64,000 nt of DNA from Cucumis sativus (taxonomy: Eukaryota; Streptophyta; Magnoliopsida; Cucurbitales; Cucurbitaceae). The notes beneath the pieces were generated by a model. That model was not told where the DNA came from. It saw only the letters and a program-made list of their open reading frames with translations, and did no database searches. Position 1 is the stretch's first letter; each line of letters starts with the position of its first letter. This document shows positions 40,245-63,330 of this stretch, piece by piece. Position numbers and translations under genes: made by a program. The stretch lies in contig NC_026657.2 of the NCBI RefSeq assembly GCF_000004075.3, positions 31,714,408 to 31,778,407 on the forward strand. Direction: 5' to 3'.

Positions 40245-40318
40245 ATCTGGGCCCAGTTTAATTTATCCGGCCCATTAAAGAAGCCAATAAAAAACCTAGC
40301 CTCGAATTAGGGTTTCTT
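40245..40318 (+). promoter_or_regulatory. RPL21-D promoter: site II and telo-box motifs
   Basis: TCTGGGCCCAG, CCGGCCCATT and AATTAGGGTTTC are present in the same order as in the other copies, just upstream of the D leader. Confidence 0.7.
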
Positions 40319-40358
40319 CATTTTGTGAGAGAGTGTGAGAGAAAGTTCTGCTCCAATC

Positions 40359-41084: not shown

Positions 41085-43032
41085 AATTTTCATCTCTTTG
41101 AACTTTTGCCTTGTTTTGTGAGTCTTATTTTTGTTTGATCTTTGCAACTGCTCTAATGTACAATTTCTCAGATTATGCTTCTAAATTTTGGAAACAGAAC
41201 TTATAGAATTGAATTGTTTCTTAGTTTCTAGTTTTCGTCACCCTGTAGTTTTAGTTTATTCAAAGATGTTCTTGTTTCGATTATTTCCATTGAACCATAT
41301 TTCTTAAACTAACTAATCTTTCTATTCTTAATCACCATCCAATTTTGATAACAAAAAGAGTTTTTAAAACTAATTTGAGTTTCAAACATTCTTACTTTTT
41401 TGATATTACTAATGACAGAATGTTTATCACTGAAATTTATTTGATATGTCAATCAATTGTGTTTTGGTTGCTTATTGTTTGGTTTATGTTCCCAAATATT
41501 GTTATCGGTGAATAAAACTACGAGGAGTTCGCTTGAGTATATGATAGTAAACTAATGATTTTTAGTGAAAAAGTGGAGTATTAAGGTTGGTAACTCTCGA
41601 ACATCCTTTGACCATTATAATAAGTTCATTGTTGTAGATTTTATCCAATTGTAATATGTTACACCATTTATAATTGTATGGAACAGATGTTCTTGATTGA
41701 TTATATTTGAGAGAACCTTAATATGTATGTGGAATTTTAATTGTTTTATTTATGTTTTATAAATAAGGTTCATTTCGTAATCAACTATCAATATAATTTG
41801 GAATTTTAAAACCTACCCTTTTGAAAGTGTTATTTTATTTTTGTGTCAAATTTAATAACATTTTCGTTATTGAGATAGAGATTTGAATTCTAACTAGTTC
41901 TTGTAGTTTTATTTGCCATAAATTGCCGACACATGTGGTGTGACTGTAATATCACAAAATTCATAACCATTCAGGCCATTGGCATGTAGAAAATTGATTG
42001 TCCTGTAAGTTATGTGATTTTTAAATGATGATGTGATTTCTCCATTTAAGTTAGTAGCACAAAAATTTGGGAATTTTCAATCTGTAATTATGATCGGCTC
42101 GAGTTATTGACTCTCTTTTGAATATGTTGGCTAGTTTTAATCTTCTGTTTCAAAATGATTGAACGGTCTTTGTATGTCTCATATTCAAAGATCAAACATT
42201 TTATATGATAAATTGCTAGAAATAGTGAAGGGTTTTTCGATTTTCAAGTGTATTCATTGGAGTTTTGTCATAGTAATTTAGCTTCGAAAAAACTCATTCA
42301 AGTGGTTAAAAATGTGATTGGACATTCGATTCTGCATATGAGAGTTTTGAAAGAAAATGTCGGTGCAGACTAATTAGTGATGTATGGTATGCCTTGGTTT
42401 CTATCTAATATGAAGTTCGGAAGTTTGGTGATTATTAGAAAACACATTCCCTTTTTTCGACTTTAAACACTTGTGGTCTTAGATGAGATTAGAAATGTAC
42501 ATCCTGAACTTTTGAATAACTCTTAATTCAAACTTTATGGTGATAATACTAAATAGAAATAGTATGATCACTTTAAGTAACAACAATTACTCATGACTCA
42601 TTCTTTTTGTTTTGATTTTGGTTGGGTTGTATCCACACGGATGTTCTTTATATTCCATTAGTTATAAAAGATTGCTGCTCCATACAATTTTCCATCATGA
42701 CCATATGTTCTTTATATTCCATTAGTTATAAAAGATTGCTGCTCATACAATTTTCCATCATGACCAATAAATAATGGTGATCGGAACGATAATTAAAATA
42801 ATAGAAAAACTAAAATAGAATAAAGTTTAGATACCAAATCTATAAATTTAAATTCTATTATTTAATTTAAATTTTGTGAACCACTCAAACAATATTTTGA
42901 ACTTAAGCCTAAGGTTCACTTTAATATTATGGTCACCACATAAACTTTATTAAAGAAAAAGAGAGGAAAAAGGAAAAATTCCCAAATACTTTTTCTCAAA
43001 AAAAAGAAGAAGAAGAAGGGAAAATCCTTTGT
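41085..43032. other. Unit D spacer between RPL21 and dirigent gene
   Basis: Near-identical to 34841-36799, differing mostly by one-base indels. It includes the ~63-bp tandem duplication at about 42643-42770. No gene is visible. Confidence 0.6.
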
Positions 43033-43609: not shown

Positions 43610-44221
43610 GGGAGTGGAGGAATTTGAAAGTATTTAAAACGGTGGAATTTCATTAATAATGAATTGTGTTTGATATTAAACGGCGAGAAGAAAAGTAAAA
43701 GGTATTGGCGTAGGTGGATGGGTCCTTTGTGGTTCGACTTCTAAAGGAAACAACAAAAAGAAATAATAATTTTATATTTACAAAATATATTAAAATTATT
43801 TTTAAAAGATATAGAGTTATTTGTTCTCAGTTCTTCATTTATTTATCACTATTTCATTATAGAAGCAAACAAGAAAGACATTGCCTTCGAAACTTATAAA
43901 TCTTTGTTGAAACGTTTGATTTACTTCAAGAAATAAAATGCCTTCTTATTGAAATTTTCTAATTCTACTTAGTAACTTTAAAAAACTAAACTTATTTCTC
44001 TCCTTTGCACAACATGATTTTGATTTTCTAAATTTTTTATTTTATGTTTTACTATGATATAATAGAATATCAATTCATCTTTTATGTCAATGTTAAACTT
44101 GAAAAATATGAAAAATTGATAAAATATTGTGATGTTGATGGAGATTAATAATATGTCACCTAGCTTCTTTTGAAATTCAAGAAGTAAACAAACACGAAGC
44201 CGCGTGAATTAAAATTAGGAT

Positions 44222-44226
44222 ATGCG
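44222..44226 (+). other. Left target-site duplication ATGCG
   Basis: ATGCG directly precedes the 5' LTR and recurs directly after the 3' LTR at 57789-57793. Joining the flanks at this site restores the spacer sequence seen in unit C (GGATATGCGTTTTTATC). Confidence 0.95.
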
Positions 44227-44554
44227 TGTTGAATAAGAAATTTTGAGACCAATCACAAGTTGCCACATCATTTATTAAGTTAATGATGAAAAGTACAAAT
44301 AATTAAATTTGGACTAATTAAAATTGACACATGCCCAAATTAAAGAGTTAAAATAAATAAATTGGTCATTCTAATAATGCCACATGTTTTCATATTAATC
44401 GTTGATTAAGTTAATCATTTTAGTTCAATTAAGCCAAAAAAAATAAGCTTAATTGAGCCCAAAGACTAAATATAACTAAGTCCATATGGTTGAGCCCATG
44501 GGTCTGGTCCATGGACCAACCAAGTTCAAACCCATAAAGCCCACCAGTGAACTC

Positions 44555-44562
44555 TATAAATA
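44555..44562 (+). promoter_or_regulatory. TATA box of the retrotransposon LTR
   Basis: TATAAATA inside CTCTATAAATAGAGG, an inverted-symmetric context, placed as expected for the LTR promoter. The same box is at 57126-57133 in the 3' LTR. Confidence 0.7.
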
Positions 44563-44732
44563 GAGGAATTCTCCTCATTTGCAGGGGTTGGAAAATTTTG
44601 ACTCTTGAAGATCTAGAGAGAATTCTTCCAAAAGCTAGAAGACTCCCTAACTTCTGAAGTTGACCACCCTCGAAGATTGAAGCTGTTTTGAAGATACAAA
44701 CTTTCTTCCAAGACTCCAACTTCAAGACATCA

Positions 44733-45090
44733 CGTGCTCCGCTTCCTCAAATCAAGCGTAAGCATTCAACCAACTTGAAGAAATCACGTGCTCCGCTTCT
44801 CCAAATCAAGCGTAGACGTTCAACAAACTTCAAGACATCACGTGCTCCGCTTCTCCAAATCAAGCGTAGACGTTCAACAAACTTCAAGAACATCACGTGC
44901 TCCGCTTCCTCAAATCAAGCGTAAGCATTCAACCAACTTGAAGAAATCACGTGCTCCGCTTCTAAATCAAGCGTAGACGTTCAACAAACTTCAAGAACAT
45001 CACGTGCTCCGCTTCTCCAAATCAAGCGTAGACGTTCAACAAACTTCAAGAACATCACGTGCTCCGCTTCCTCCAAATCAAGCGTAGACA
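44733..45090 (+). repeat. ~53-bp tandem array in the 5' LTR, each unit with CACGTG
   Basis: Seven units of about 50-54 bp share ATCACGTGCTCCGCTTC, CAAATCAAGCGTAGACGTTC and AACAAACTTCAAGA. The palindrome CACGTG, a G-box/E-box core, is present in every unit. The array is downstream of the TATA box, so it would be transcribed as leader. Confidence 0.85.
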
Positions 45091-45220
45091 TACAGTTGAG
45101 AGAGAATCAGAGGATCAAATTCTAGAGATTGAACCGCATCGCATCAAATCAACAAAAATACAACATCAACCAAGTTAAGTCCACGAATTAAATTTCTCCG
45201 GAAATCTCGTGCGAACAAAT

Positions 45221-45235
45221 TGGCACGCCCAGTGG
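45221..45235 (+). other. Primer binding site
   Basis: TGGCACGCCCAGTGG begins 3 bp after the 5' LTR and starts with TGG, complementary to the CCA end of a tRNA. I do not assign the tRNA species. Confidence 0.7.
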
Positions 45236-45287
45236 ACCATCTCTACCTCTCATCTCTCTCTCATCATCTAGATCTACAAGCAAATCA

Positions 45288-47006
45288 ATGGCATCAAAGA
45301 AAGCTGCATCCAAATCTTCAGCTGCAAGCGACACCTACACGGGACCTATCACCCGTAGTCGTTCCAGGGGATCATCCAAGGGCAAGCCAAGGTTCCGCCA
45401 TCGCGCAGAGCATCCTGAAGCAATTGATGGAATCTCCTAAAGCTGGAATTGTCATCAAGGAAAATCCTCTATATAACGATTATGATTCTGCCTCTAGCAG
45501 GTCACTGAAAGAAGCACACCCAGATGTGATGTTGACGATGATCCGTCAGATCGAGACTGCCATGGCGGAGATGGAGAGAAAAATTAATCTCCTGATGAAG
45601 GTTGTTGATGAACGAGACCACGAAATTGCAGCTTTAAAGGAGCAGATGCAGACTCGTGAAACTGCTGAATCGAGTCAAACTCCTGTCGTTAAAGTTGATG
45701 ACAAAGGGAAGAACGTGTACAAGAAAATCAGCCACAACAACAATCAACTTCTGTGGCTTCTCTCTCGGTTCAACAATTACAAGATATGATCACAAGCTCC
45801 ATCAGAGCACAATATGGAGGCCCATCTCAGACTTCTTTCATGTACTCTAAACCATACACCAAAAGAATCGACAACTTGAGAATGCCGCTTGGATATCAGC
45901 CTCCAAAATTCCAGCAGTTTGACGGAAAGGGCAATCCAAAACAGCACGTTGCTCACTTCGTCGAAACATGTGAGAATGCAGGATCAAGAGGAGATCAACT
46001 AGTCAGACAATTTGTTCGAAGCTTGAAAGGAAATGCTTTTGAATGGTATACTGATCTGGAGCCAGAAAGCATTGAGAGTTGGGAACAACTAGAAAAGGAG
46101 TTTCTCAATCGCTTCTACAGCACCAGGCGTACTGTAAGCATGATGGAGCTTACAAATACGAAACAAAGAAAGGGAGAACCAGTCATCGACTACATCAATA
46201 GATGGAGAGCTCTAAGTCTTGACTGTAAAGATCGGCTCACCGAACTGTCGGCTGTAGAAATGTGCACCCAAGGCATGCACTGGGGACTCCTCTACATTTT
46301 GCAGGGAATAAAGCCCCGCACATTTGAAGAACTGGCAACTCGAGCTCATGATATGGAGTTGAGCATCGCCAGTAGAGGAACTAAAGATTTTCTTGTTCCT
46401 GAAGTAAAGAAAGATAAGAAAGAGATGAAAGGTGCTGAAAAGATAGTGAAAAGCACCACGAAAGAATCTATGGTCGTAACAAACCCCGCTGAAATTCTCC
46501 AAAGGAAAGGAAGCGAGGGTTGAAAAGAAGGATGATGGAAGCGAAAGGCGACGTCTGACTTTAAAAGAAAGGCAGGAAAAAGTTTACCCATTTCCTGATT
46601 CAGATATCGCTGACATGCTAGAGCAACTACTAGAGAAGCAGCTGATCCAGCTGCCAGAATGTAAACGACCTGAGCAAGCAGGAAAGGTAGATGATCCCAA
46701 TTACTGCAAGTATCATCGGGTCATCAGTCATCCAGTAGAGAAATGCTTCGTGCTGAAGGAGCTAATTCTAAGGTTGGCTCGTGAGAAAAGGATGAGCTAG
46801 ATTTGGAGGAAGTAGCTCAAACAAACCACGCTGAAGTGACGATAATGTCTGAGGCTTCTTTCGTCGAGATTGATTTTTGAGCAAAGGAAAAGCTTGGTCC
46901 AGTTCGGGACCTTTGAGCCTATAGTTGTCCATTCTTTCAGGAAATCTCATACGAGGATCCTCAAGGAGAGAAAAGACCAATTGAAGAAGACGATGAAGGG
47001 TGGATA
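45288..47006 (+). pseudogene. gag: Retrotransposon gag region (frame-broken)
   Basis: The probable start at 45288 opens MASKKAASKSS and loses its frame within about 100 bp. The continuation lies in the +1 frame and contains a coiled-coil-like acidic/basic segment (45430-45660). The main capsid block is open at 45753-46523 and contains HVAHFVETCENAGSRGDQLV and NAFEWYTDLEP, typical of the plant retrotransposon gag domain. A further piece at 46615-46800 has a zinc-knuckle-like CKYHRVISHPVEKC, in which the second ligand is His instead of Cys. At least three frame changes separate these pieces. Gag packages the element RNA into particles; as written it is not one continuous protein. Confidence 0.85.
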
Positions 47007-47825
47007 GTGGTGACCCACCGAAAGAAAAGACAGTCGATCCCGACCCAAAGAGAGTCTCGCTCTTACCAAAACTATAGAAGAGGAAATAAGACTCAAAAGA
47101 ATAAGAAAAAGAAGAAGACTCATAAGCTTAAGCTCGTACATAATGAAGACATGAATTTCTCTCGACCTCAACGCTTAGTGACCTTGGCAGACTTCCTTCC
47201 AAAAAGCTTCCTTTGTGATCATCAGGATGAAGACCCAGAAGTCGTTGCGTGTCATGCTATCAACACAACGGAGGAAGAAATAATCCCTCCAAGATCACTA
47301 GAAGGAGAGGGAGTATCAAAAGACCTTTCAAGGTTTAATGTAGAGGATCTATTATCACTTCCTCAAGAGACCAAAACCATCCTTATTGATGCATTGCTAA
47401 ATTCAAGAGCATCAAGTTCGAGTACTCCGACTATGACATATGAGAGTGGTTCTTATTGTATGTCTATAGACTTCTCAGATGAGGATTTGTTGTTGGGATC
47501 TAAACTTCATAATAGACCTTTGTATGTTTCTGGATACGTTCGAGAACAGAGAGTCGATCGAATCCTCATTGATAATGGCTCAGCTGTCAACATAATGCCA
47601 AAGTCGACTATGTGGCAATTAGGCATCTTGATGGACGAGCTCTCAAATAGCAAGCTAGTAATTCAAGGTTTTAACCAAGGTAGCCAAAGAGCAATAGGCA
47701 TGATACGGTTAGAACTCATAATTGGCGACCTAAAGGCCAGTGCATTGTTTCATGTCATAGACTCAAGGACTACTTACAAGTTGTTACTAGGGCGTCCTTG
47801 GATTCATGGAACGGAAACGGAGTAG
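47007..47825 (+). pseudogene. Retrotransposon aspartic protease region
   Basis: An open frame of 272 codons with a lysine-rich start and a retropepsin-like domain. The active-site motif is IDNGSAVNIMP near residue 189, followed by a LLGRPWIH block that marks the end of retroviral-type proteases. D-N-G-S replaces the more usual D-T/S-G. It would mature the Gag-Pol polyprotein. It ends in a stop right after the LLGRPWIH block because of a small insertion around 47810, and the sequence continues in another frame. Confidence 0.8.
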
Positions 47826-49369
47826 TAACTTCAACACTGCATCAGTGCTTCAAATTTTATCAGGACGGTGTAAAGAAGGTTGAAGCCGACTCTAATCCAT
47901 TCTCAGAAGCTGAGTCTCACTTCGCAGATGCAAAGTTTTATTCAAAGAATAATAATATTTTAGAAGTTTTGCCTGCAGAAACCCCTCTTACAAAAGGAGA
48001 AGATAATTCACAACTGAAATCACTCGCAACCACAGAACCACATGAAAGTGCGAGAACCTTTAACTCTGGAAAGGGTGAAACATACACTCGCAACACAAAG
48101 GGTATGATCTTGAAGAATGAAAATGCTGCAAACACACCAGTTTTGCGTTATGTCCCTCTGTCAAGGCGCAAGAAAGGCGAATCACCATTCATGGAGTCTC
48201 CAAAAGGTTTGAAAGTTGTTGGGACATCGAAATCATAAAAGAAAGCTTCACTACACCACTAACTAAGATAGCGAAGCAGGAGGTAAAGGTAGATCTGGTG
48301 GAAGCAAACTTGCCCCAAAGGCGAACGAAAGACGGATTCGACCCCAAGGCTTACAAATTGATGGCGAAACAGGTTATGACTTCACAGCTCACACCGAGTT
48401 TAAAAAGCTTAAATTCATGACCGACCTGGCTCTCCTCAACTCAAAAGAAGCTTCTACGGGAAGGACATTCTATACCCGTGTCGAGAAAAGGACTCGGATA
48501 CAAGTCGCCAGAACCGATCCGTATAACTAAAAAGGGGAAGGAAAAAGTGGTTGACATCAATCATATAACTATAGAGGAGGATGACAATACTGACGTAAAA
48601 GAAGGTGATAATCAGAGAATCTCAGTATTTGATCGAATTAGACCATCTGTTGCACGTCCCGTAGTATTTGAAAGGCTAAGCATGACAGAGGCAGAAAGAG
48701 AAAGGCTCCAGTCAGTACCAAACCTTGAGAGACATTCGGTCTTTCGAAGGCTAACTACGACTCCCATAAAGGAAGAAAGCACATGCCATGCCTTGACAAC
48801 TACAAGACCATCAGCCTTTGAAAGGCTAGGTGTGTCTAAAAAGAAAAATGTACAAGCACCCCGTGCTCCGATTTTTAATCATCTCGGGGATAAAGGATCA
48901 CACGACAACATTGATTCCAACATAGATACAAAGAAGAAGGAACCAATGTCTCGTGTGAAAGTTTGGCGTCGAATTAAGCATACAGATGTCGATAATTATC
49001 GTAGTAAGAAGTTTCCTTGCGAGACAAAGGAAAATGGAGAAATTCATAGCAACGTTCCTTCTCGCATGAAAAGAAAAACTTTTGTTACTCTCAATACAAG
49101 TCAAGGTTCGTTAAAGGTAAAAAGACATGATGTTATACTAACGAATCCTGAAAAAGAAGGGTCGGAACAAGGGAAGGTGAAACTTCATGTCATCACATCA
49201 CCATTATTGAGGAATCAGAGACTGGAACTCATGAAGAAGACGCAGAAAATGCCCCACAAAGTTTAGAGGATGGTGGTCAATCTACTGTAGACGAGCTAAA
49301 AGAGGTGAACCTTGGTACAATAGAGGAACCACGTCGACTTTCATTAGTGCGTCCCTCTCTAATGAAGAG
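47826..49369 (+). pseudogene. Retrotransposon linker between protease and reverse transcriptase
   Basis: Two open stretches (47798-48238 and 48478-49266), charged and low in structure, with repeated short motifs (SVFDRI/AFERL/VFRRL-type) and no enzyme domain that I recognise. They are separated by frame changes. Such spacers are common in Tat-type elements. Confidence 0.6.
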
Positions 49370-50383
49370 GTGGATAAATATATGAGTTTGCTCACCGAAT
49401 ACAGGGACATCTTTGCGTGGTCATACAAGGAGATGCCAGGACTTGACCCAAAAGTAGCAGTCCATCATCTTGCAATTAAACCCGGATATCGACCGATTAA
49501 ACAAGCACAACGACGTTTTCGACCGGAGCTTATCCCTCAAATCGAGGTGGAAGTCAACAAGTTGATCGAAGCAGGATTCATTCGCGAGGTCAAATATCCA
49601 ACGTGGATAGCAAACATTGTCCCTGTTAGAAAAAAAAATGGACAACTTCGCGTTTGTGTAGACTTTCGCGATCTGAATAATGCATGCCCTAAAGATGATT
49701 TTCCCTTGCCCATCACCGAAATCATGGTTGATGCAACTACTGGACACGAGGCGTTGTCGTTTATGGATGGGTCGTCTGGATATAATCAAATACGGATGGC
49801 CCTCTCAGATGAAGAAATGACAGCTTTCAGAACTCCAAAGGGAATATACTGTTACAAGGTGATGCCCTTTGGATTGAAAAATGCCGGCGCTACTTATCAA
49901 CGTGCCATGCAGAAAGTGTTTGATGATATGTTGCACAGGTATGTTGAATGTTATGTTGATGATCTTGTAGTCAAAACAAAGAGACGACAAGACCATTTGA
50001 AGGATCTAAAAGTCGTGTTTGATCGCTTGCGAAAATATCAGCTAAGGATGAACCCTCTCAAGTGTGCGTTTGGTGTAACTTCAGGAAAATTTCTTGGCTT
50101 CATTGTAAGGCATCGAGGGATCGAAATAGACCAGTCCAAGATTGATGCCATTCAGAAGATGTCAAGACCTAAAAGTTTGCATGACCTAAGAAGTCTCCAA
50201 GAGATGGCTTACATCCGAAGGTTCATCTCTAACTTGGCCGGTCGGTGTCAACCTTTTCAAAAGTTGATGAGAAAAGGAGAAAATTTTGTGTGGGATGAAG
50301 CTTGTCAGAACGCTTTTGATAGCATAAAGAAATACTTGCTTACTCCCCAGTGCTGGGAGCTCCAGTACCTGACAAACCACTAA
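49370..50383 (+). pseudogene. Retrotransposon reverse transcriptase domain
   Basis: A 337-codon frame with the full order of plant Ty3/gypsy reverse transcriptase blocks: YPTWIANIVPVRKKNGQLR, CVDFRDLNNACPKDDFPLP, SFMDGSSGYNQI, MPFGLKNAGATYQRAM, and the catalytic YVDD at residues 195-198, followed by the thumb (KCAFGVTSGKFLGFIV). It makes element cDNA from RNA. The frame is lost at 50350, where the neighbouring RNase H frame takes over. Confidence 0.9.
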
Positions 50384-51285
50384 TATTGTACATTGCTGCA
50401 CAAGAAAGGTCCTTAGGAGCATTACTGGCACAAGAAGAGGTAAAGGGAAAGGAGCGTTCTCTCTACTATCTAAGCAGAACATTAATTGGGGCTGAAGTTA
50501 ACTATTCTCCTATCGAAAAGATGTGTCTTGCACTTTTCTTTGCCATTGATAAGTTGAGGCATTATATGCAGGCCTTCACGGTTCATCTAGTGGCAAAAGC
50601 AGACCCTATAAAGTATGTTCTATCCAGGCCAATCATCGCTGGACGCTTAGCCAAATGGGCGGTTCTACTCCAACAATATGACATTGTCTATATTCCCCAA
50701 AAGGCGATAAAAGGACAAGCGCTAGCAGACTTTTTAGCAGACCACCCAATTCCTTCGGATTGGAAGTTATGTGATGACCTACCAGACGATGAGGTTTTCT
50801 TCACAGAAGTTATGGAACCTTGGACTATGTACTTCGATGGTGCAGCTCGAAGAAGTGGTGCGGGGGCAGGCATTGTCCTCATTTCTCCTGAGAAGCATAT
50901 GTTGCCTTATAGCTTTGCACTTTCCGAATTGTGTTCAAACAATGTGGCTGAATATCAGGCTTTGATAATTGGCCTTCAAATAGCATTAGAAATCGGAGTG
51001 TCATTCATAGAGGTCTATGGTGATTCAAAATTGATAATCAATCAACTCTCGCTTCAATATGACGTGAAACATGAAGACTTGAAGCCATATTTTGCTTATG
51101 CTCGACAATTGATGGAAAAGTTTGATAATGTGATGTTAGAACATGTCCCTAGAGTAGAAAATAAGAGAGCGGATGCATTGGCAAATTTAGCCACGGCCTT
51201 GACCATGCCAGATGATGTAACTCTGAACATACCACTTTGTCAACGATGGATTATACCCCAGTTAGGCCTGAATGTCAGGAAGTGA
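50350..51285 (+). pseudogene. Retrotransposon dual RNase H region
   Basis: The first 110 residues align with the normal Ty3/gypsy RNase H by layout (SLGALLAQEE, LYYLSRTL, YSPIEKMCLA), but the segment where the first catalytic Asp should stand reads LYIAAQERS, so that site appears lost. A second RNase H of archaeal type follows, with apparently complete catalytic residues: D163 (MYFDGAAR), E201 (NVAEYQAL), D225 (YGDSKL) and D275 (KRADALANLA). Two RNase H domains in tandem are a hallmark of Tat-lineage elements, where the second one is thought to have taken over the activity. Confidence 0.87.
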
Positions 51286-52205
51286 ACATGGCAACATCCT
51301 ATTTGATTGATGAAGAAGATTGGCGTCAACCCATCATAGAGTATCTTGAACATGGAAAGCTTCCAAAGGATTCTCGTCATAAAATTGAGATACGAAGAAG
51401 GGCAGCACACTTCATTTATTACAAGGGAACTTTATATCGCCGTTCTCTTGAAGGGCTCTTCCTTCGATGTCTCGGAAAGGAAGATTCGGTAAAAGCTCTA
51501 AAGGAAGTACATGCAGGTGTTTGTGGAGCACATCAATCGGGACCAAAGCTTCAATTCCAGCTAAGAAGAATGGGCTACTACTGGCCTAAGATGATCCAAG
51601 ATTCAATAGACTATGTGAAGAAGTGTGAGCCTTGTCAATACCATGCAAACTTCATACACCAACCTCCAGAACCTCTTCATCCAACTGTGGCTTCTTGGCC
51701 TTTTGAGGCTTGGGGACTCGATCTGGTTGGCCCCATTACACCAAAATCATCAGCAGGACATTCTTATATCCTAGCAGCAACAGACTATTTTTCAAGGTGG
51801 GCTGAGGCCATTTCATTGAGAGAAGCCAAGAAGGAGAACGTGGCAGACTTTATTCGAACACACATCATCTATCGATACGGTATTCCACATCGAATCGTGA
51901 CGGATAATGGAAAGCAATTCTCCAATAGTATGATGGACAAGTTATGTGAAAAATTCAAATTCAAGCAATATAAGTCATCCATGTACAACGCAGCTGCGAA
52001 TGGACTAGCAGAAGCATTCAACAAAACATTGTGTAATCTTTTAAAGAAAATTGTCTCCAAGTCAAAGAGGGATTGGCAAGAAAAGATCGGCGAGGCATTA
52101 TGGGCTTATCGACGACTCATCGCACCCCTACAGGGGTTACACCATATTCGCTTGTTTACGGTGTGGAGGCTGTCCTTCCTCTCGAAAGGGAAATTCCGTC
52201 ACTAA
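51237..52205 (+). pseudogene. Retrotransposon integrase region
   Basis: The open frame contains the HHCC zinc site (HAGVCGAHQSG, then CEPCQYH) and the catalytic core with D162 (WGLDLVGP), D223 (TDNGKQFSN) and E259 (GLAEAFNKTL), spaced D-60-D-35-E as in retroviral integrases. It loses its frame after WAYRR, and the C-terminal part continues in other frames to about 52550, including a GDLVL-type block. No chromodomain is visible, in line with a Tat-type rather than a chromovirus element. Confidence 0.88.
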
Positions 52206-52577
52206 GAATGCAGTACAAGAGGGATTGACTACCGAAAGATAAGTGAAGTTACTCTTCAAGAATTAGAAGCACTTGACGAAAAGCGTTAGAGGCTCAGCAA
52301 GCATTGGAATGTTATAAGCGAGAATGTCCAAGCTTTTGATAAACACGTTAAACCTCGCTCCTTTCAAGTCGGTGATCTAGTGCTTGCCGTAAGGAGACCG
52401 ATCATCACAACAAGCATACAGGAAATAAGTTCACACCTAAATGGATGGACTTACATTGTTAAAGAAGTTTATACAAATGGCGCATACAAGATCGTGATCA
52501 AGACGGACTACGAATTGGCCCAATCAATGTAAATTTCTTAAAAAAATTTATGCTTAATTTTGTTAAAAAAAAAAAAA

Positions 52578-53215
52578 AAGTTGAACTACGTTATGACTTG
52601 ATCCCTATGTTATAAAGGGTACGTAGGCAGCTTAAGGAAAACCTTAAGCCCAGTCCAGCAAAAAAAAAGTTGAACTACGTTATGACTTGATCCCTATTAT
52701 AAAGGGTACGTAGGCAGCTTAAGGAAAACCTTAAGCCAGTCCAGCAAAAAAAAAGTTGAACTACGTTATGACTTGATCCTATGTTATAAAGGGTACGTAG
52801 GCAGCTTAAGGAAAACCTTAAGCCCAGTCCAGCAAAAAAAAATTGAACTACGTTATGACTTGATCCCTATATATAAGGGTACGTAGGCAGCTTAAGGAAA
52901 ACCTTAAGCCCAGTCCAGCAAAAAAAAATTGAACTACGTTATGACTTGATCCCTATTATAAAGGGTACGTAGGCAGCTTAAGGAAAACCTTAAGCCCAGT
53001 CCAGCAAAAAAAAATTGAACTACGTTATGACTGATCCCTAATTACAAAGGTACGTAGGCAGCTTAAGGAAAACCTAAGCCCAGTCCAGCAAAAAAGAACT
53101 ACGTTAGACTTGATCCCTACTTATAAAGGGTACGTAGCAACTTAAAGAAAACTTTAAGTTCAGTCCACCATTATAAAAAAAAAAAAAAAAAAAACCTTGA
53201 ACTACGTCGTGAGTT
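52578..53215 (+). repeat. Tandem array of ~86-bp paired-hairpin units
   Basis: Seven units plus a degenerate eighth begin near 52580, 52669, 52755, 52843, 52928, 53014, 53096 and 53197. Each has a first inverted repeat (CTACGT ... CCCT ... AGGG ... ACGTAG) and a second perfect hairpin (GCTTAAGG-AAAA-CCTTAAGC), then a CCAGTCCAGC-A(n) tail. Unit 7 has ACTTAAAG-AAAA-CTTTAAGT, in which both arms changed together. The array sits directly after the integrase region. Confidence 0.9.
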
Positions 53216-53640
53216 AATTCTTTTCTTCAAAGGGTGTTCATCTCCACTAAGAAATCATAACAAATTGGGGGCAAATCCCTAAATTCAAGATGTTCATCTT
53301 TAGTAACAATGAGATGAAATAAATTGAAGATGTACAAACTCCGTGCAAAGACTATGTACAAGTTGAGTGCATGTAAAAAGAAAAAAAAAAAGAGAATCTC
53401 AAAATCAAGCTCAAAGGCATCATTAATGATCCCTCAAATTCAAGCATAAAAGTTTCATTGATGATTCCTTATATTCAAGTTTGAAGGCTTCATCGATGCT
53501 GCAGCTCCAGCTCTTTGAGAGGATAACGATGGTACAACTTTGATAGGACGACGATCGGGCAGCTCTGCCTTCGCCTCTCCAAGATGAAAACGACAGTGTA
53601 ACATCGTTTCTGCCTCTTGAAGAAGATGCATGCAATGCTA
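53216..53640 (+). other. Retrotransposon 3' noncoding segment
   Basis: It begins with GTGTTCATCTCCACTAAG and continues with repeated GATGTTCATC / TTCAAGCT-type phrases. No conserved coding frame. Transition between the hairpin array and the minisatellite. Confidence 0.5.
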
Positions 53641-53649
53641 AAGCTTTAA

Positions 53650-54875
53650 CCTCTGCTTCATCTTCAGCTTATTGCAACGAAGAGGATTCATCTTCATCTT
53701 CTTCTAAGTTTGCAATCGAAGATGATTCATCTTCATCTGCTCTAAGGTTCGCAAGTGAGAGGATTCATCTTTGTCTTCCTCCATGTGTTACAACCGAGAT
53801 GATTCATCTCATCTTCACCTAGGAGTCGCAATCAAGAAGATTCATTTTCATCTTCTCTCAGGTGTAACAACCGAAGATGATTCATCTTCATCTGCTCTAA
53901 GGTGTCGCAAGTGAGAGGATTCATCTTTGTCTTCTCCTATGTGTTGCAACCGAGAGGATTCATCTTCATCTTCTCCTAAGAATTGCAACTGAGAAGATTC
54001 ACCTTCATCTTCTTCTAGGTGCTACAACCGAGAGGATTCATTTTCATCTTCTCATTGGAATTGCAACTGAGAAGATTCATCTTCATCTTCTCCTAAGAGT
54101 CGCAACGAGAAGATTCACCTTCATCTTCTTTCAGGTGTCGCAACCAAAGAAGATTCATCTTCATCTTCTTAGGAGTTGCAACCAAAGAGAATTCATCTTC
54201 ATCTTCTTTCAATATCGTAGCCGGAAGGATTCACCTTCATCTTCTTCTAGGTGCTACAATCAAAGATGATTCATCTTCATCTTCTCTTATATGTCATAGC
54301 TGAGAAGATTCATCTTCATCTTCTCCAGGTGCTGCAATCGAAAATGATTCATCTTCTCTCATATGTCATACCGAGAGATTCATCTTCATCTTCTCCCATA
54401 TGTCATAGCCGAGAGATTTATCTTCATCTTCTCCCAGGTGCTGCAATTGAATAGGATTCATCTTCATCTCCTCCCATATGTCATAGTCGAGAGGATTCAT
54501 CTTCATCTTCTCTCATATGTCATAGCTGAGAGGATTCATCTTCATCTTCTTCCAAGTGCTGCAACTGAAGAGAATTCATCTTCATCTCCTTTCATATGTC
54601 ATAGCCGAGAGGATTCATCTTCATCTTCTCTCATATGTCATAGCTGAGAGGATTCATCTTCATCTTCTTCCAAGTGCTGCAACTGAAGAGAATTCATCTT
54701 CATCTCCTCCCATATGTCATAGCCGAGAGGATTCATCTTCATCTTCTCCTATATGTCGTAGCTGAGAGTATTCATCTTTATCATCTAACAGGTGTCGCAA
54801 CCCGGCCGATGGAATTCATTTTCATCAGCTCTAAGGTGTCGCAAGCTAGATGATTCATCTTCATCTTCTCCCTAG
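53650..54875 (+). repeat. GATTCATCTTCATCTTC minisatellite, about 25 units
   Basis: Units of roughly 40-50 bp share GAGGATTCATCTTCATCTTC followed by variable TCCYAGGTGCTGCAAC or TCCCATATGTCATAGC. In the second half (about 54490-54780) they form a higher-order block of about 118 bp (TCCAAGTGCTGCAACTGAAG recurs at 54551 and 54669). All six frames give low-complexity Ser/Leu/His-rich translations, so I treat it as noncoding. Confidence 0.85.
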
Positions 54876-54885
54876 TACCACAACC

Positions 54886-54959
54886 AAGAAAGAAAGAAAA
54901 AAAAAGGAGAAGCAAGAAGAAGAAAGAAGAAAATGATGAAGAAGAAAGAAGGAAGAAGG

Positions 54960-54992
<33 letters not shown>

Positions 54993-55125
54993 AAAAACAA
55001 AAAGAAAGAAAAACAAAAAAAAAACAAAAGAAAGAAGAAGAAGAAAACAAAAAAAAGAAGCAAAAGAAGAAAAAACAAAAAGAAAGAAGAATAAGAAGAA
55101 GAAGAAAAAAAAAAAACGAAGAAGC
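54886..55125 (+). repeat. A-rich/(AAG)n tract
   Basis: About 240 bases that are almost purely A and G on the + strand, including an unbroken run of about 30 A from 54960. The shadow reading on the other strand is a phenylalanine/serine-rich frame that is not a gene. Confidence 0.85.
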
Positions 55126-55132
55126 TCAATTG

Positions 55133-55808
55133 GTGATAACGAAGATCGAAGCCCGACGATGACAGAGTCGATCTCTCCTACTAGGGCGATAGATCTGACG
55201 GCAAAAGCCCGATCGTCCCTAGAAGAAGCTCAACAAAGTCATTTATGCAAACGAAGATTGAAGCCCGACGATGACAGAGTCGATCTCTCCTACTAGGGCG
55301 ATAGATCTGACGGCAAAAGCCCGATCGTCCCTAGAAGAAGCTCAACAAAGTCATTTCTGCAAACGAAGATTGAAGCCCGACGATGACAGAGTCGATCTCT
55401 CCTACTAGGGCGATAGATCTGACGGCAAAAGCCCGATCGTCCCTAGAAGAAGCTCAACAAAGTCATTTCTGCAAACGAAGATCGAAGCCCGACGATGACA
55501 GAGTCGATCTCTCCTACTAGGGCGATAGATCTGACGGCAAAAGCCCGATCGTCCCTAGAAGAAGCTCAACAAAGTCATTTCTGCAAACGAAGATTGAAGC
55601 CCGACGATGACAGAGTCGATCTCTCCAACTAGGGCGATAGATCTGACGGCAAAAGCCCGATCGTCCCTAGAAGAAGCTCAACAAAGTCATTTCTGCAAAC
55701 GAAGATCGAAGCCCGACGATGACAGAGTCGATCTCTCCTACTAGGGCGATAGATCTGACGGCAGAAGCCCGATCGTCCCTAGAAGAAGCTCGACAAAGTC
55801 ATTCCTGC
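55133..55808 (+). repeat. Exact 112-bp satellite, six copies
   Basis: The word GACGATGACAGAGTCGATCT starts at 55155, 55267, 55379, 55491, 55603 and 55715, a constant 112-bp spacing with no indel. Copies differ by single substitutions (AGATCG versus AGATTG; CTACTAGG versus CAACTAGG). The period is not a multiple of three. Confidence 0.95.
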
Positions 55809-55893
55809 AAAAAAAAAAAAAAAAAAAAACAAAACAAAAATACAAAAAAAAAAAACAAACAAAAAAACAAAACAAAACAGAAAAAAAAAAACA

Positions 55894-55928
<35 letters not shown>

Positions 55929-56780
55929 GAGAAAGGGAGAAGAAAAGTTTTCTATACCTTTCTGCCGATTTGATGAGGAATAAGCGTTGGATGAGGTATA
56001 AGTGAGTAGGGTATGAGTCTATTTATAAGCCCAACAAATCCAATTCCTAAAAGGATTAGGAATGATATTTAATTATTTTTTTAAAAAAAAACAAATCCAA
56101 TTCCTAAAAGGAATAGGAATGATTTTTAAAAAATATATATATATAAAGAAAAGATAATCCAATTATCTTATTTTATTTTAAATTATTTCTTTTTTTTGGA
56201 TAAATCTCAAGTTTAACTTTTATTGAGATATTTAAAATATTTAAAAATTTCAACATTTTTAAAAATATATACATATATATATAAATATTCTCAATTTCAA
56301 AATTCAAGTTAAATTAACTTGCATATATGACCTCCTTTTTATCATGAATTTAAATCGGAGCCATAAATCCAACTTTACCTAAGATTGAGGACCTGATTTT
56401 TTTATCTCAAATTAAAATTGGTCATTCCAAATTCTTATGCATCCCCAAGATAAATTAAGGTACGGTAGAAACCTTATCCTTATTTCAAAATTAAAATTTT
56501 GGTTATATTCCAAATTTTACTTTAAAAAAAAAAAATCATCATATTAATTTTTTTTCCCCTCAAATAAAATTAAGTGGGAAATAAAACTTTGAATTTTTTT
56601 TAAGGTTTGGCCATATTCCAACCCTTATTTTAAATTTAAATCAAACTCACGTACTAAATTCATAGTTTGATTAATTTGATATGCTGAATTGAGTAAAAAA
56701 AAAAAAAAAAAAAGGCTCGTACTTTGACTTCAAATTTATCTTTTCCGAGATTCATTCACCCATATACGTGCATAAATCTC
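55809..56780 (+). other. A-rich tract and AT-rich pre-LTR region of the retrotransposon
   Basis: It starts with about 120 bases of A-rich and CA-repeat sequence (ACACACACAC near 55892), then AT-rich noncoding DNA up to the polypurine tract. A short duplicated phrase (AAATCCAATTCCTAAAAGGA) occurs at about 56035 and 56092. Confidence 0.6.
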
Positions 56781-56790
56781 GAAAAGGGGC
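56781..56790 (+). other. Polypurine tract
   Basis: GAAAAGGGG followed by CATT, then the 3' LTR at 56794. Position and composition fit the plus-strand primer site. Confidence 0.65.
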
Positions 56791-56793
56791 ATT

Positions 56794-57788
56794 TGTTGAA
56801 TAAGAAATTTTGAGACCAATCACAAGTTGCCACATCATTTATTAAGTTAATGATGAAAAGTACAAATAATTAAATTTGGGACTAATTAAAATTGACACAT
56901 GCCCCAAATTAAAGAGTTAAAATAAATAAATTGGTCATTCTAATAATGCCACATGTTTTCATATTAATCGTTGGATTAAGTTAATCATTTTAGTTCAATT
57001 AAGCCAAAAAAAATAAGCTTAATTGAGCCCAAAGACTAAATATAACCTAAGTCCATATGGTTGAGCCCATGGGTCTGGTCCATGGACCAACCAAGTTCAA
57101 ACCCATAAAGCCCACCAGTGAACTCTATAAATAGAGGAATTCTCCTCATTTGCAGGGGTTGGAAAATTTTGACTCTAGAAGATCTAGAGAGAATTCTTCC
57201 AAAAGCTAGAAGACTCCCTAACTTCTGAAGTTGACCACCCTCGAAGATTGAAGCTGTTTTGAAGATACAAACTTTCTTCCAAGACTCCAACTTCAAGAAC
57301 ATCACGTGCTCCGCTTCCTCAAATCAAGCGTAAGCATTCAACCAACTTGAAGAACATCACGTGCTCCGCTTCTCCAAATCAAGCGTAGACGTTCAACAAA
57401 CTTCAAGAACATCACGTGCTCCGCTTCTCCAAATCAAGCGTAGACGTTCAACAAACTTCAAGAACATCACGTGCTCCGCTTCTCAAATCAAGCGTAGATT
57501 CAACAAACTTCAAGAACATCACGTGCTCCGCTTCTCCAAATCAAGCGTAGACGTTCAACAAACTTCAAGAACGTGCTCCGCTTCTCCAAATCAAGCGTAG
57601 ACGTTCAACAAACTTCAAGAACATCACGTGCTCCGCTTCCTCCAAATCAAGCGTAGACATACAGTTGAGAGAGAATCAGAGGATCAAATTCTAGAGATTG
57701 AACCGCATCGCATCAAATCAACAAAAATACAACATCAACCTAAGTTTAAGTCCACGAATTAAATTTCTCTGGAAATCTCGTGCGAACA
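56794..57788 (+). repeat. 3' long terminal repeat
   Basis: About 995 bp, matching the 5' LTR, with the TATA box at 57126-57133 and seven CACGTG-region units (one unit reads GAACGTGCTCC and has lost the leading CAC). Most differences from the 5' LTR are one-base indels. Confidence 0.95.
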
Positions 57789-57793
57789 ATGCG
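57789..57793 (+). other. Right target-site duplication ATGCG
   Basis: ATGCG follows the 3' LTR terminal AACA and continues into TTTTTATCAATTTTTTG, the expected unit D spacer. Confidence 0.95.
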
Positions 57794-58790
57794 TTTTTAT
57801 CAATTTTTTGAAATAATAAATAAAATGCTACTTTTTCCAGCTACTCCATTGGTAACATTTAAAAACAATTTTATGTTTTAATTTTCATAATTATGAAAGG
57901 CATCAAACAAATAATTTATTATCCTTCTTCCATTGTATATTAACCAATTTGGTAGATTTAGATGTAAATTATACGTAGGTAGGATGCTCTATGTTCAAAT
58001 ACTTAGTCTTTACTCAATTATTTATTAAGAGCAATGCATTAATACATTAACGATGAATTGAAATGATAAATTTAGAAACAATTTTATAATACAAATTGGA
58101 TCTAAGATCTAGAACACAAAATTTCTTGATCTTCAATCCACATATTGCAATTGAGTTAAGCTCTTCAAAATTTAAAAAATCATATATTTTTTAAACCTCT
58201 CTTGAGTAATTCACACTAAAAAAACCAAGGAGACTTGGAGGATTCCAATAGTTTATAACAAACTTTTATACAAATTTGAAGCAAGGGAGACTTGGAGGAT
58301 TCCGATAGTTTATAACAAACTTTTAATAATATAAAGTTAAGATTTGAATTAAAAATGGGCAGTAGACTCGAAAAATCTTAAATAACTTTTGAAGATCTAT
58401 AAGATTAAAAATGAAGAGTATCGATTTGGTTTTTAAAAATTAAGTTTATAAATACTACTTTATTCGTAAATTTATTTATTTTATCCAACTCAAATTTAGG
58501 TAAGATTGTGTTTTTTTAAAAATTTATTTTTGTTTAAAATTTTGATTAAGAATATGAGAACTTTTCTAAAAATGTAAAAAGTATACTCTATGATTAATTT
58601 TTTCAGAAATAGAAACTAAAATAAAAAGTAATTTATTTTAGAAAATAAAAACAAATTATTTGAAAAACAAATATTTTTCTGAGGTCAATGATCAAAATTT
58701 GTGATTAAATCTTTTTTTTAGGTTAAAAACCCTTTGAAAATGAATGGTCAATTATACCCCCGGATCTTCGTCGTCGTTGGGTTTAACTCA
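57794..58790. other. Unit D spacer, right of the retrotransposon
   Basis: Continuation of the spacer interrupted at 44226. It is near-identical to about 37996-38960 in unit C. No gene is visible. Confidence 0.6.
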
Positions 58791-59155: not shown

Positions 59156-60044
59156 GTGAGTTGCCATCGTTCCGATCTTCGATTTTATTTGCTTTGAGAA
59201 CACATAATTTAATGGTGCTTCTAGGTTTTTTGATCGGTAGAGTTATAATTGAACTCTATGTTGTGTTTGTTTAATTGGTTCGTCTTGAGTAGTTCATGAA
59301 CGTTTGTTGATCGATGATTTAAGAGTTTAATTCAATTCAGTTCTTGCTATTAGCAATTGGAGTATTCTATCTAACTCAATTCATGGTTTTCAAGGGACGT
59401 AAAAAATTGTAGGAATGAAGTTCGTGGTTTTCTTTTGGAAAAATCTTTATTTCTTCGCTAATTCAAAAAGAAGGTTTATGAGATATTTATTCTTATTTAA
59501 TAATTTTTTTTAATTATTAATTAAGAAAAAATAGCTAAATACTCACCTTTGAGTGAATTGTCAGAGAATTTAAATGAAGGTAAGAATGACAATCCAATGA
59601 TAAAATTTAACCTTCCAAATTTAGTGAGTACTTGAACTTGTCTAACAATAGTTAAATTATAGATCTAGAACCTAAAAACTATTTGGAAAATTATCGAAAC
59701 ATCAATTTTTTTTTTAAAATGACTTAATTTTTGTATCAAATACTTAAAAATATATTCAAAACACAGTATTGTGTTTCAATTAAATTAAAATTAAACTCTA
59801 CACCATGATAATAATTTTTTTGACCATTTTTATTTTCTGAGGAAAAACTACAAAAATAGTTATAAATGTAGCCATTAGATTTAAAATAATTAAGTTTATA
59901 ATAATATAATTTTTAAAAATATAACATAATATGTTAATTCGAAATGATAGTAATCAAATATTAGTCACTATATTTATGATTTTTTAAAAATATAGTTATA
60001 TGACTATTCGTAAATTTGCTAACAGATTACATTTTGTGCTTTCT

Positions 60045-60116
60045 ATCTGGGCCCAGTTTAATTTATCCGGCCCATTAAAGAAGCCAATAAAAAACCTAGC
60101 CCTCGAATTAGGGTTT
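60045..60116 (+). promoter_or_regulatory. RPL21-E promoter: site II and telo-box motifs
   Basis: TCTGGGCCCAG near 60046, CCGGCCCATT at about 60067 and the reverse telo-box TAGGGTTT at 60109-60116, ordered as in copies B and C. Confidence 0.75.
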
Positions 60117-60160
60117 CTTCATTTTGTGAGAGAGTGTGAGAGAAAGTTCCTGCTCCAATC

Positions 60161-60885
60161 ATGCCGGCCGGCCATGGACTTCGATCACGTACCAGAGACC
60201 TCTTCGCCAGGCCTTTCAGGAAGAAGGGTTACATTGCTTTGACTACCTACTTGAGGACGTACAAAATCGGTGATTATGTGGATATCAAGGTGAACGGCGC
60301 CGTCCACAAGGGTATGCCTCATAAATTTTACCATGGTCGCACAGGTCAGGTATGGAATGTCACAAAGCGCGCCATCGGTGTCGAGATCAACAAACAGGTT
60401 CGGGATTCTTTTTTAAAATCTGTTATAGTTTTTAGAATGTATATGAATCTGGTGATTTAGGGTAATAGATTGTGTTTGGTTTTGATAGAATCTTAATTAG
60501 TTTTCGGACTCTGTTTTTCTTATTAAACTTGTGAATCTTAATGTATGTTCTAGTTTGATGGGTTCTGGAATCTGCTTTTTTTTTTTTTAGTATTAAACTT
60601 GTGATTTTGGGAATGAATTTTTTGTAGGTCGGGAACAGAATTATTAAGAAAAGAATTCATGTGAGAGTGGAGCACGTGCAGCCTTCTCGATGCACGGAGG
60701 AATTTCGCTTGAGGAAGGTGAAGAATGATGAGCTGAAGGCTGAAGCCAAGGCCAAAGGCGCAGTCATCTGCACCAAGAGGCAACCGGAAGGCCCCAAACC
60801 AGGGTTCATGGTTGAAGGAGCTCTGATGGAGACTGTGACTCCCATTCCATACGATGTGGTTAATGATCTCAAAGGTGGCTATTAG
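60161..60885 (+). CDS. RPL21: 60S ribosomal protein L21 (eL21), copy E
   Basis: Exons 60161-60397 and 60628-60885 give an intact 164-residue eL21 with the same protein sequence as copy C. Promoter motifs and leader are conserved. The intron is 230 bp. With copies B and C it makes three intact eL21 genes in this window. Confidence 0.96.
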
Positions 60886-63330
60886 AATTTTCATCTCTTT
60901 GAACTTTTGCCTTGTTTTGTGAGTCTTATTTTTGTTTGATCTTTGCAACTGCTCTAATGGTACAATTTTCTCAGATTATGCTTCTAAATTTTGGAAACAG
61001 AACTTATAGAATTGAATTGTTTCTTAGTTTCTAGTTTTCGTCACCCTGTAGTTTTAGTTTATTCAAAGATGTTCTTGTTTCGATTATTTCCATTGAACCC
61101 ATATTTCTTAAACTAACTAATCTTTCTATTCTTAATCACCATCCAATTTTGATAACAAAAAGAGTTTTTAAAACTAATTTGAGTTTCAAACATTCTTACT
61201 TTTTTGATATTACTAATGACAGAATGTTTATCACTGAAATTTATTTGATATGTCAATCAATTGTGTTTTGGTTGCTTATTGTTTGGTTTATGTTCCCAAA
61301 TATTGTTATCGGTGAATAAAACTACGAGGAGTTCGCTTGAGTATATGATAGTAAACTAATGATTTTTAGTGAAAAAGTGGAGTATTAAGGTTGGTAACTC
61401 TCGAACATCCTTTGACCATTATAAAAGTTCATTGTTGTAGATTTTATCCAATTGTAATATGTTACACCATTTATAATTGTATGGAACAGATGTTCTTGAT
61501 TGATTATATTTGAGAGAACCTTAATATGTATGTGGAATTTTTAATTGTTTTATTTATGTTTTATAAATAAGGTTCATTTCGTAATCAACTATCAAATAAT
61601 TTGGAATTTTAAAACCTACCCTTTTGAAAGTGTTATTTTATTTTTGTGTCAAATTTAATAACATTTTCGTTATTGAGATAGAGATTTGAATTCTAACTAG
61701 TTCTTGTAGTTTTATTTGCCATAAATTGCCGACACATGTGGTGGTGACTGTAATATCACAAAATTCATAACCATTCAGGCCATTGGCATGTAGAAAATTG
61801 ATTGTCCTGTAAGTTATGTGATTTTTAAATGATGATGTGATTTCTCCATTTAAGTTAGTAGCACAAAAATTTGGGAATTTTCAATCTATAATTATGATCG
61901 GCTCGAGTTATTGACTCTCTTTTGAATATGTTGGCTAGTTTCAAAATGATGGAACGGCCTTTGTATGTCTCATATTCCAAAGATCAAACATTTGATATGA
62001 TAAAATTGGCTAGAAATAGTGAAGGGTTTTTTGATTTTCAAGTGTATTCATTGGAGTTTTGTCATTGTAATATTTAGCTTCGAAAAAACTCAATCAAGTG
62101 GTTAAAAAATGTGATTGGACATTTGCGATTTTGCATATGAGAGTTTGAAAGAAAATGTCGGTGCAGACTAATTAGTGATGTATGGTGTGCCTTGGTTTCT
62201 ACCTAATATGAAGTTTGGAAGTTGGGTGATTAAAATATGATAAAAATATTGTGATGTTGATGAAGATTTAATAATATATCACATAGCTCCTTTTGAAATT
62301 CAAGAAGTAAACAAACACGAGACGTGAATTAAAATTAGGATATGCGTTTTTATCAATTTTTTGAAATAATAAATAAAATGCTACTTTTTCCAGCTACTCC
62401 ATGGTAACATTTAAAAACAATTTTATGTTTTAATTTTCATAATTATGAAAGGCATCAAAGAAATAATTTATTTATCCTTCTTCCATTGTATATTAACCAA
62501 TTTAGTAGATTTAGATGTAAATTATACATAGGTAGGATGCTGTATGTTTCAAATTCTGAGTCTTTTACTCAATTATTTATTAAGAGCAATACATTAATAC
62601 ATTAACGATGAATTGAAATGATAAATTTAGAAACATTTTTTTTTAAATACAAATTGGATCGAAGACTTAGAACACAGAATTTATTGATCTTCAATCCACA
62701 TATTGCAATTGAGTTAAGCTCTTCAAAATTTAAAAATCATATATTTTTTAAACCTCTCTTGAGTAATTCACACTAAAAAAAACAAACAAGGAGACTTGGA
62801 GGGATTCCAATAGTTTATAACAAACTTTTATACAAATTTGAAGCAAGGGAGACTTGGAGGATTCCGATAGTTTATAACAAACTTTTAATAATATAAAGTT
62901 AAGATTTGAATTAAAAATGGCAGTAGACTCGAAAAATCTTAAATAACTTTTGAAGATCTATAAGATTAAAAATGAAGAGTATCGATTTGGTTTTTAAAAA
63001 TTAAGTTTATAAATACTACTTTTATTCGTAAATTTATTTATTTTATCCAACTCAAATTTAGGTAAGATTGTGTTTTTTTAAAAATTTATTTTTGTTTAAA
63101 AATTTTGATTAAGAATATGAGAACTTTTCTAAAAATGTAAAAAGTATACTCTATGATTAATTTTTTCAGAAATAGAAACTAAAATAAAAAGTAATTTATT
63201 TTAGAAAAATAAAAACAAATTCTTTGAAAAACAAATATTTTTCTGAGGTCAATGGATCAAAATTTGTGATTAAATCTTTTTTTTAGGTTAAAAACCCTTT
63301 GAAAATGAATGGTCAATTATACCCCCGGAT
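60886..63330. other. Unit E spacer with a different dirigent deletion
   Basis: Up to about 62233 it follows the unit C 3' flank (34841-36204). Then GAAGTTGGGTGATT is joined to AAAATATGATAAAAATATTG, which in unit C lies 1.68 kb further on, past the dirigent gene. From 61930 on it is somewhat more diverged than C versus D. No gene remains. Confidence 0.8.

Follow-up and report, generated by a model that had tools for sequence, protein, structure and literature searches.

A tandem array of putatively structured RNA modules downstream of integrase in a cucumber Tat-type retrotransposon

We analyzed a 64,000-nucleotide stretch of the cucumber genome (Cucumis sativus, NCBI RefSeq assembly GCF_000004075.3, contig NC_026657.2, positions 31,714,408 to 31,778,407 of the forward strand; hereafter the window), in which a Tat-type Ty3/gypsy long terminal repeat (LTR) retrotransposon carries a tandem array between its integrase and its 3' LTR. 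The original prediction, made from the letters alone, had placed an array of units of ~86 base pairs (bp) after the integrase region and had given each unit two hairpins whose structure, rather than sequence, is kept. The array itself was confirmed, at 86 bp × 7.0 copies by Tandem Repeats Finder, as seven units spanning 52583–53172 plus a degenerate eighth. Our favored explanation, to which we assign a probability of roughly 45%, is that the unit is a cis-acting structured RNA site on Tat-type genomic RNA, for export or packaging. The evidence that structure is kept comes mainly from two divergent homologs outside this genome, L052 and L053, in which stems re-form with other letters.

Organization of the array and its host element

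All units lie on the forward strand, with units 1–6 delimited from letters and folds. Unit 1 (52583–52671) contains a first stem, CTACGT/ACGTAG (stem 1), an inner stem, CCCT/AGGG, a second hairpin, GCTTAAGG/CCTTAAGC (hairpin 2), and a possible crossing stem, GACT/AGTC. It is followed by unit 2 (52672–52757), unit 3 (52758–52844, with CCCT shortened to CCT), unit 4 (52845–52930), unit 5 (52931–53016) and unit 6 (53017–53095), where one arm of hairpin 2 has a deletion (CCTAAGC). Unit 7 (53096–53172), assigned from letters and a comparison of arrays, carries the variant ACTTAAAG/CTTTAAGT and is followed by an A-rich run to ~53198, beyond which the first half alone of the eighth unit (53199–53278) is recognizable from its letters, with a nonsignificant model match (11.8 bits, E 2.9). 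The sequence TACGTAGGCA is present in six of the seven units and the exact arm pair CTTAAGG/CCTTAAG in five, while unit 7 lacks one G in ACGTAGGCA; the conserved unpaired stretches of the unit are TTGAT and GCA.

The 5' LTR (TG...CA, 44227–45217) and 3' LTR (56794–57788) were delimited by local alignment to each other, with 979 of 984 aligned bases identical and 14 gaps. From the same alignment we read a 5-bp target duplication, ATGCG, at 44222–44226 and 57789–57793, and a polypurine tract, GAAAAGGGGCATT, read from the sequence, adjoins the 3' LTR at 56781–56793; these are general features of LTR elements and not specific to Tat. Forward-strand open reading frames (ORFs) encode gag (45753–46523; Pfam Retrotrans_gag, E 3e-14), reverse transcriptase (49370–50383; RVT_1, E 4.8e-34), RNase H together with a second RNase H domain (50350–51285; RT_RNaseH and RVT_3) and integrase (51237–52205; rve and Integrase_H2C2). 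RT_RNaseH (residues 7–110) and RVT_3 (162–281) share the single ORF that precedes the integrase ORF, and on the basis of its Pfam match we take RVT_3 as a second, putatively archaeal-type RNase H; excerpts of PMC6317226 report a second RNase H before integrase, and this domain order, for the angiosperm Tat clades Ogre and Retand. Relative to three sister copies, 51201–52580 has 16–17 bases missing at only 1–6 mismatches, so small deletions here probably reflect local misassembly. Elsewhere in the assembly, copies of the element keep frames open for up to 2486 amino acids.

Predicted folds and the terminal-unit variant

Minimum-energy folds of the sense strand formed both stem 1 and hairpin 2 in six of the seven units, as predicted, but the inner CCCT/AGGG stem in only four (units 2, 4, 5 and 7); units 1 and 3 pair otherwise in that region, and unit 6 lost stem 1 and had a bulged hairpin 2. 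Stability relative to shuffled sequences was moderate (z −1.71 to −2.42 for sense and −0.57 to −2.01 for antisense). In unit 7, two G:C pairs of hairpin 2 had been described as A:T on both arms, together with a concerted change of the flanking G...C. We read ACTTAAAG-AAAA-CTTTAAGT with exactly two pairs differing; the flanking G...C counts among them and is no third change.

We then read hairpin 2 in the units of fetched loci and tabulated 34 multi-unit arrays, excluding the duplicate L078. The last unit was exactly ACTTAAAG/CTTTAAGT in 14 arrays and exactly GCTTAAAG/CTTTAAGT, a G-U form, in 7, with the other ends being one-letter variants (such as L074, L080, L086, L094 and L117) or of another kind (L085, L088, L093, L113, L114, L121, L125 and L127). 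Neither exact terminal form was found among the internal units of the same table, which were mostly GCTTAAGG/CCTTAAGC. Because the terminal variant or its G-U form closes 21 of 34 arrays, unit 7 does not carry a fresh event but, on these comparisons of letters, an old and inherited terminal-unit variant common to the family. In L118 (GCTTAAAG/CTTTAAGC) one of the variable hairpin 2 pairs is changed without the other, so the two changed independently. Copies contain 1 to 8 units, and since many array ends share a terminal form that no internal unit in the table shows exactly, the array seems to grow upstream of a fixed last unit.

Such arrays could be caused by the hairpins themselves, acting in reverse transcription as pause or strand-transfer sites. 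Arrays occur in at least two subfamilies with differing hairpin 2 loops (AAAA in the window, TTCA in locus L168), and a motif unit in L080 (501–595) carries an insertion in its inner loop that by eye resembles sequence immediately preceding the motif in L086 and may be a remnant of template switching. However, a role in reverse transcription leaves the conserved unpaired TTGAT and GCA unexplained, as well as the placement of the motif in a putative LTR in L052 (see below), and we consider it improbable.

Divergent homologs and a long-range pairing

A scan of 84,980 prokaryote species genomes for a gapped pattern of GAACTACG, TGAT and TACGTAGGCA returned three matches: L052, L053 and L054, the last of which looks like a chance match. 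L052 is a contig in a Solirubrobacter assembly that has no stop-free stretch above 107 amino acids and reads like plant DNA; the region from ~72 (TGTAGACATCC) to ~3511 (CACA), with TTGGCGACTCCACTGGGGA after it, resembles an LTR with a primer site, and the motif at 2827 may sit within this putative LTR, read from a single copy. L053 is the end of a contig in a metagenome-assembled genome from roe-deer gut, and its first 300 bases are plant-like. We infer a plant origin for both from the character of their sequence; they are plant-like DNA in public bacterial assemblies, apparently through contamination or a chimeric contig. Neither has a DNA match in the cucumber genome, an empty result that carries little weight.

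The original prediction had proposed checking whether other elements keep the stems with different sequences, and both homologs do so for the inner stem and for a further, long-range pairing. In a fixed register with G-U pairs counted, the inner stem is CTTTGTCAA/TTGATAAGG (9 bp) in L052 and TCCTCTA/TGGAGGA (7 bp) in L053, with shuffle P values of 0.0006 and 0.0019; elsewhere it is CCCT/AGGG (4 bp, window family) or TCCTTT/AAAGGG (6 bp, L077). Hairpin 2 is also kept in different letters outside L052, being a seven-pair CTTAATT/AATTAAG in L053 on a GCA/TGC base that L052 has as well. The long-range pairing joins the strand directly after CTACGT to the 3' end of the module and crosses stem 1. 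It measures 6 bp in both homologs, GGACTT/AAGTCC in L052 and GGCCTT/AAGGCC in L053, with one pair differing on both sides, and gave shuffle P values of 0.0094 and 0.0011, respectively, for Watson–Crick pairs alone.

As a chance set we used 62 matches, nearly all from viral contigs, comprising L054 and the matches of our viral scans whose stem 1 anchors were identical or similar; repeats, matches too near an end and matches lacking CTACG were removed, and the anchors are not all exactly alike. A long pairing of at least 6 bp was present in one of these, an inner stem of at least 7 bp in two, and both in none. The viral scans had themselves been pattern searches (43, 14, 11 and 26 stretches) that yielded chance matches alone, as judged by eye from the letters. 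When the 37 viral loci of the last two scans were scored with the model, the best (L144 and L160, 22.7 bits, E 0.0063) looked unrelated beyond the anchors.

For L052, the nested stem 1 fold and the long-range fold have equal predicted energy (−16.9 kcal/mol, z −1.77); for L053 the long-range fold is the optimum (−23.1 kcal/mol, z −2.39), and in three cucumber-like units tested the stem 1 fold is favored by 1.8 to 3.6 kcal/mol. Because the long-range stem crosses stem 1 at comparable energies, the module is predicted to be either a pseudoknot or a two-state fold. The homologs therefore suggest, in place of two separate hairpins per unit, a single module with a further stem that crosses or competes with stem 1. 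This crossing stem, which in its 4-bp form in this genome pairs in 73 of 86 distinct rows, is supported but not proved.

The order of stems (stem 1, crossing, inner, hairpin 2) resembles that of self-cleaving ribozymes of the hepatitis delta virus (HDV) type, whose fold has the strand order P1, P2, P3, P4, in which P1.1 needs a C pair and the letters of P1 are not expected to be conserved. L052 and L053 have the equivalent strand order, and in both GCAA precedes or overlaps the crossing strand. Against a ribozyme, no Rfam ribozyme matched L052, L053 or one window unit even at E 10, the inner loop of window units offers no C pair and thus no P1.1 candidate, stem 1 letters are conserved, and the P2 equivalent in window units is 4 bp and not significant. 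Apart from strand order nothing points to catalysis, and we consider self-cleavage very improbable.

Occurrence across the cucumber genome

Within the 226.6 Mb (88 contigs) searched, we counted 258 exact matches to a 22-mer of the unit and 274 to a gapped pattern. From 131 integrase matches we fetched 25 loci of the same family (L069–L076, of which L071 is the window copy, L112–L116 and L117–L128), and the motif was directly downstream of integrase in 24, or in 18 of 19 without the six loci already known to bear it (L069, L071, L072, L073, L112 and L127). At 15 loci with distant integrases (L097–L111, 37–41% identity), no motif was found at E ≤1 in the 7.8–8 kb fetched. Similarity of the sister family L095 to the window runs through pol and the motif, then stops; the next ~820 bp gave no blastn match to the window at E 1e-4. 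Over 3 kb, L077 matches 44000–58000 of the window solely in the motif stretch (~110 bp). L077, L095 and L119 represent families that retain the module as a single unit. Pol-deleted copies (L081, L082, L086 and L087) were dropped as a sign of a requirement in cis because they had been located by the motif itself, so that their keeping it is no test.

On contig C6, a macro-repeat of ~1.24 kb (L168, C6:27882840–27884700) matches across 27882877–27888373, giving at least five copies by match positions. The two macro-repeats that we read contain six motif units each, of the sister type with a mostly TTCA loop, and by eye the end of pol; they look like a satellite-like outgrowth of the retrotransposon 3' region.

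Covariation

We assembled 137 matches from 47 sources, giving 89 distinct but related rows including L052 and L053. L002–L004, L006, L008, L071, L078, L084, L091, L096, L166 and L167 were dropped as duplicate places, and L090, a separate place, was also dropped. Overall, 94.8% of 1569 cells were paired compared with 93.0% in shuffles, and registers slid from the proposed one were 17–56% paired. Changes on both sides were found in 8 of 18 pairs (2.7 in shuffles, 0 of 500 as high) and in 64 cells (11.8 in shuffles, 0 of 500 as high), and there were 23 further pair types (19.3 in shuffles, 3 of 500 as high). The first pair of hairpin 2 was G-C in 33 rows, G-U in 29, A-U in 23 and other in 1. A stem 1 change in L119 (CTATGT/ACATAG) was given no weight as covariation, since decay at CpG sites can look like a paired change. 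No strand preference is seen in the decay of single copies.

This null strand test fits a DNA-level element equally well as an RNA. Plant bZIP factors prefer ACGT cores, two of which occur in each unit, and the TACGTA/ACGT cores could serve as binding sites in an enhancer or chromatin signal, or the unit could extrude as a cruciform; the strong conservation of stem 1 sequence is consistent with this. Yet the ACGT cores do not include the inner stem, hairpin 2 or the long-range stem, all of which pair with changed letters, and we regard action at the DNA level as quite unlikely.

A proposed cis-acting RNA module and its main rival

Under our favored explanation, the units would all be copies of the same folded module, carried in the sense (genomic) RNA, with stem 1 stacked on the variable inner stem and hairpin 2 after it. 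In the divergent homologs, the strand after CTACGT would pair with the module 3' end across stem 1, making a pseudoknot or a switch between two states. Bound by the Gag of the element or by a host protein, the module would mark full-length genomic RNA for export or packaging, and the tandem array would be secondary, with copies multiplying upstream of the fixed terminal unit, probably through template switching in reverse transcription. What is observed is the location of the motif, its presence in relatives and an inner stem (with hairpin 2, outside L052) that forms in different letters; the RNA-level action, the protein binding, the export or packaging and the mode of array growth are inferred.

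Several results weigh against this explanation. Because the search pattern itself set stem 1 in L052 and L053, that stem is no test there; hairpin 2 of L052 is minimal (two pairs beyond the GCA/TGC base), and the inner stem has 2 pairs in L095 and none in this register in L082. The long-range pairing is not significant once G-U is allowed (P = 0.17 for L052 and 0.07 for L053), and the crossing stem in this genome, 4 bp long and almost without variation, falls short of significance (P = 0.59). The outside homologs number two, both of presumed plant origin and both built into model R1, to whose structure the covariation alignment (A6) was fitted. Within the covariation itself, which the original prediction had asked to be tested across the family, the changes at six of the eight two-sided pairs come from no more than two rows each, stem 1 holds two of the eight and CpG decay could pass for pairing there, and most of the signal within this genome comes from two hairpin 2 pairs. 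A preference for the sense strand, with 75 G-U versus 41 A-C cells, falls to 46 versus 41 without one pair. One same-family locus, L116, has no motif. The unit 7 change, offered initially as an argument for a kept structure, is weak alone, being an inherited variant. Furthermore, the 3' arm of unit 6 is one base short with no matching change opposite, which is the unmatched one-arm change named at the outset as contrary; this deletion is probably an assembly error, as in the adjoining region, and so is weak evidence either way.

The main rival is an ordinary, functionless tandem repeat of the 3' untranslated region (UTR), produced by slippage or abnormal strand transfer, with incidental hairpins and likeness by common descent. 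Macas 2009, cited in PMC7004042 and PMC6317226, reportedly describes tandem repeats in the 3' region of Tat/Ogre/Retand elements. Excerpts of PMC7004042 and PMC11963269 likewise place tandem repeats between pol and the 3' LTR of Tat/Ogre elements, and the cucumber array matches such 3' UTR repeats in element type, in its site between pol and the 3' LTR, in variable copy number and in satellite-like outgrowth. In support of a functionless repeat (for which PMC11963269, as excerpted, can also be cited), unit number varies between copies, the 1.24-kb macro-repeat carries further units, single-copy decay is unbiased by strand and most two-sided changes are on few rows. On the other hand, the module is kept in single-unit families, outlasts its surroundings in L095 and forms two pairings in other letters in L052 and L053; on balance, we find a functionless repeat unlikely, though with a real claim to attention. 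The excerpts also call Tat/Ogre repeats hypervariable and family-specific (PMC7004042, PMC11963269), in contrast to the cucumber unit, which different subfamilies share and which two plant-like contigs from other sources carry with its stems changed yet pairing.

The array had been proposed as an undescribed element. Tandem repeats at this site are well described in Tat elements, according to the excerpts of PMC7004042 and PMC11963269, and within the reach of our searches the new point is the conservation of the unit as a folding module, beyond a family-specific hypervariable repeat. Similar core letters may also be present in other plant elements. Rfam 15 gave no match near a gathering threshold for the motif in 51500–54500 of the window, in L052 or in L053, and none in short stretches at E 10. 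Literature searches on two core words together found no paper, and those on one core word found none relevant by title among the matches listed; among the matches listed for Tat/Ogre repeats, conserved motifs, cucumber, RNA structure and Ogre pseudoknots, the motif was in no title. A broader proposal is that the unit belongs to an undescribed RNA module widespread in angiosperm Tat/Ogre elements, pseudoknotted or two-state with HDV-like strand order, located in the 3' UTR in one lineage and the LTR in another, governing what happens to the genomic RNA and arrayed in some families; we hold this tentatively, and would sooner doubt it than assert it.

The retroviral CTE is a structured cis-acting RNA comparable to the RTE and MTE of mouse LTR elements. 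Excerpts of a review (PMC12786077) describe RTE (IAP) and MTE (MusD) as structured RNA transport elements, the latter with a pseudoknot and kissing loop, and state that no direct study of RNA export has been made for plant LTR elements. The cucumber unit, likewise a putatively structured cis-acting RNA in an LTR element, differs from RTE, MTE and CTE in its plant host and its lack of an Rfam match, and is likened to them by description, being known from sequence alone. Tat/Ogre elements form large parts of some plant genomes, with Ogres at 45% of the Lathyrus sativus genome according to an excerpt of PMC7004042. If our reading is true, a portable structured module that outlives its surroundings would be a concrete cis-element to test for plant RNA export and would give a reason for the persistence of some 3' UTR repeats that seed plant satellites.

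Further features of the 3' region and flanks

The excerpts of Vicient 2025 (PMC11963269) describe a comparable long region between POL and the 3' LTR of Retand elements, with tandem arrays after pol in about half of them and an antisense TRP28 ORF in 97% of their clusters. The corresponding family, PF04195, had no match in the cucumber genome, but equally none in 14 control genomes, and the longest antisense stop-free stretch in 52561–56800 is 122 amino acids. Two further tandem arrays are present in the 3' region of the element: a degenerate one at 53681–54871 with a period of 39, 78 or 118 bp, and six near-identical 112-bp copies at 55138–55811. Finally, the Tat element is flanked by direct repeat pieces (~40138–42140 and 59938–61944) that are 98–100% identical and ~19.8 kb apart, which suggests that it lies inside another repeated element or between its ends.
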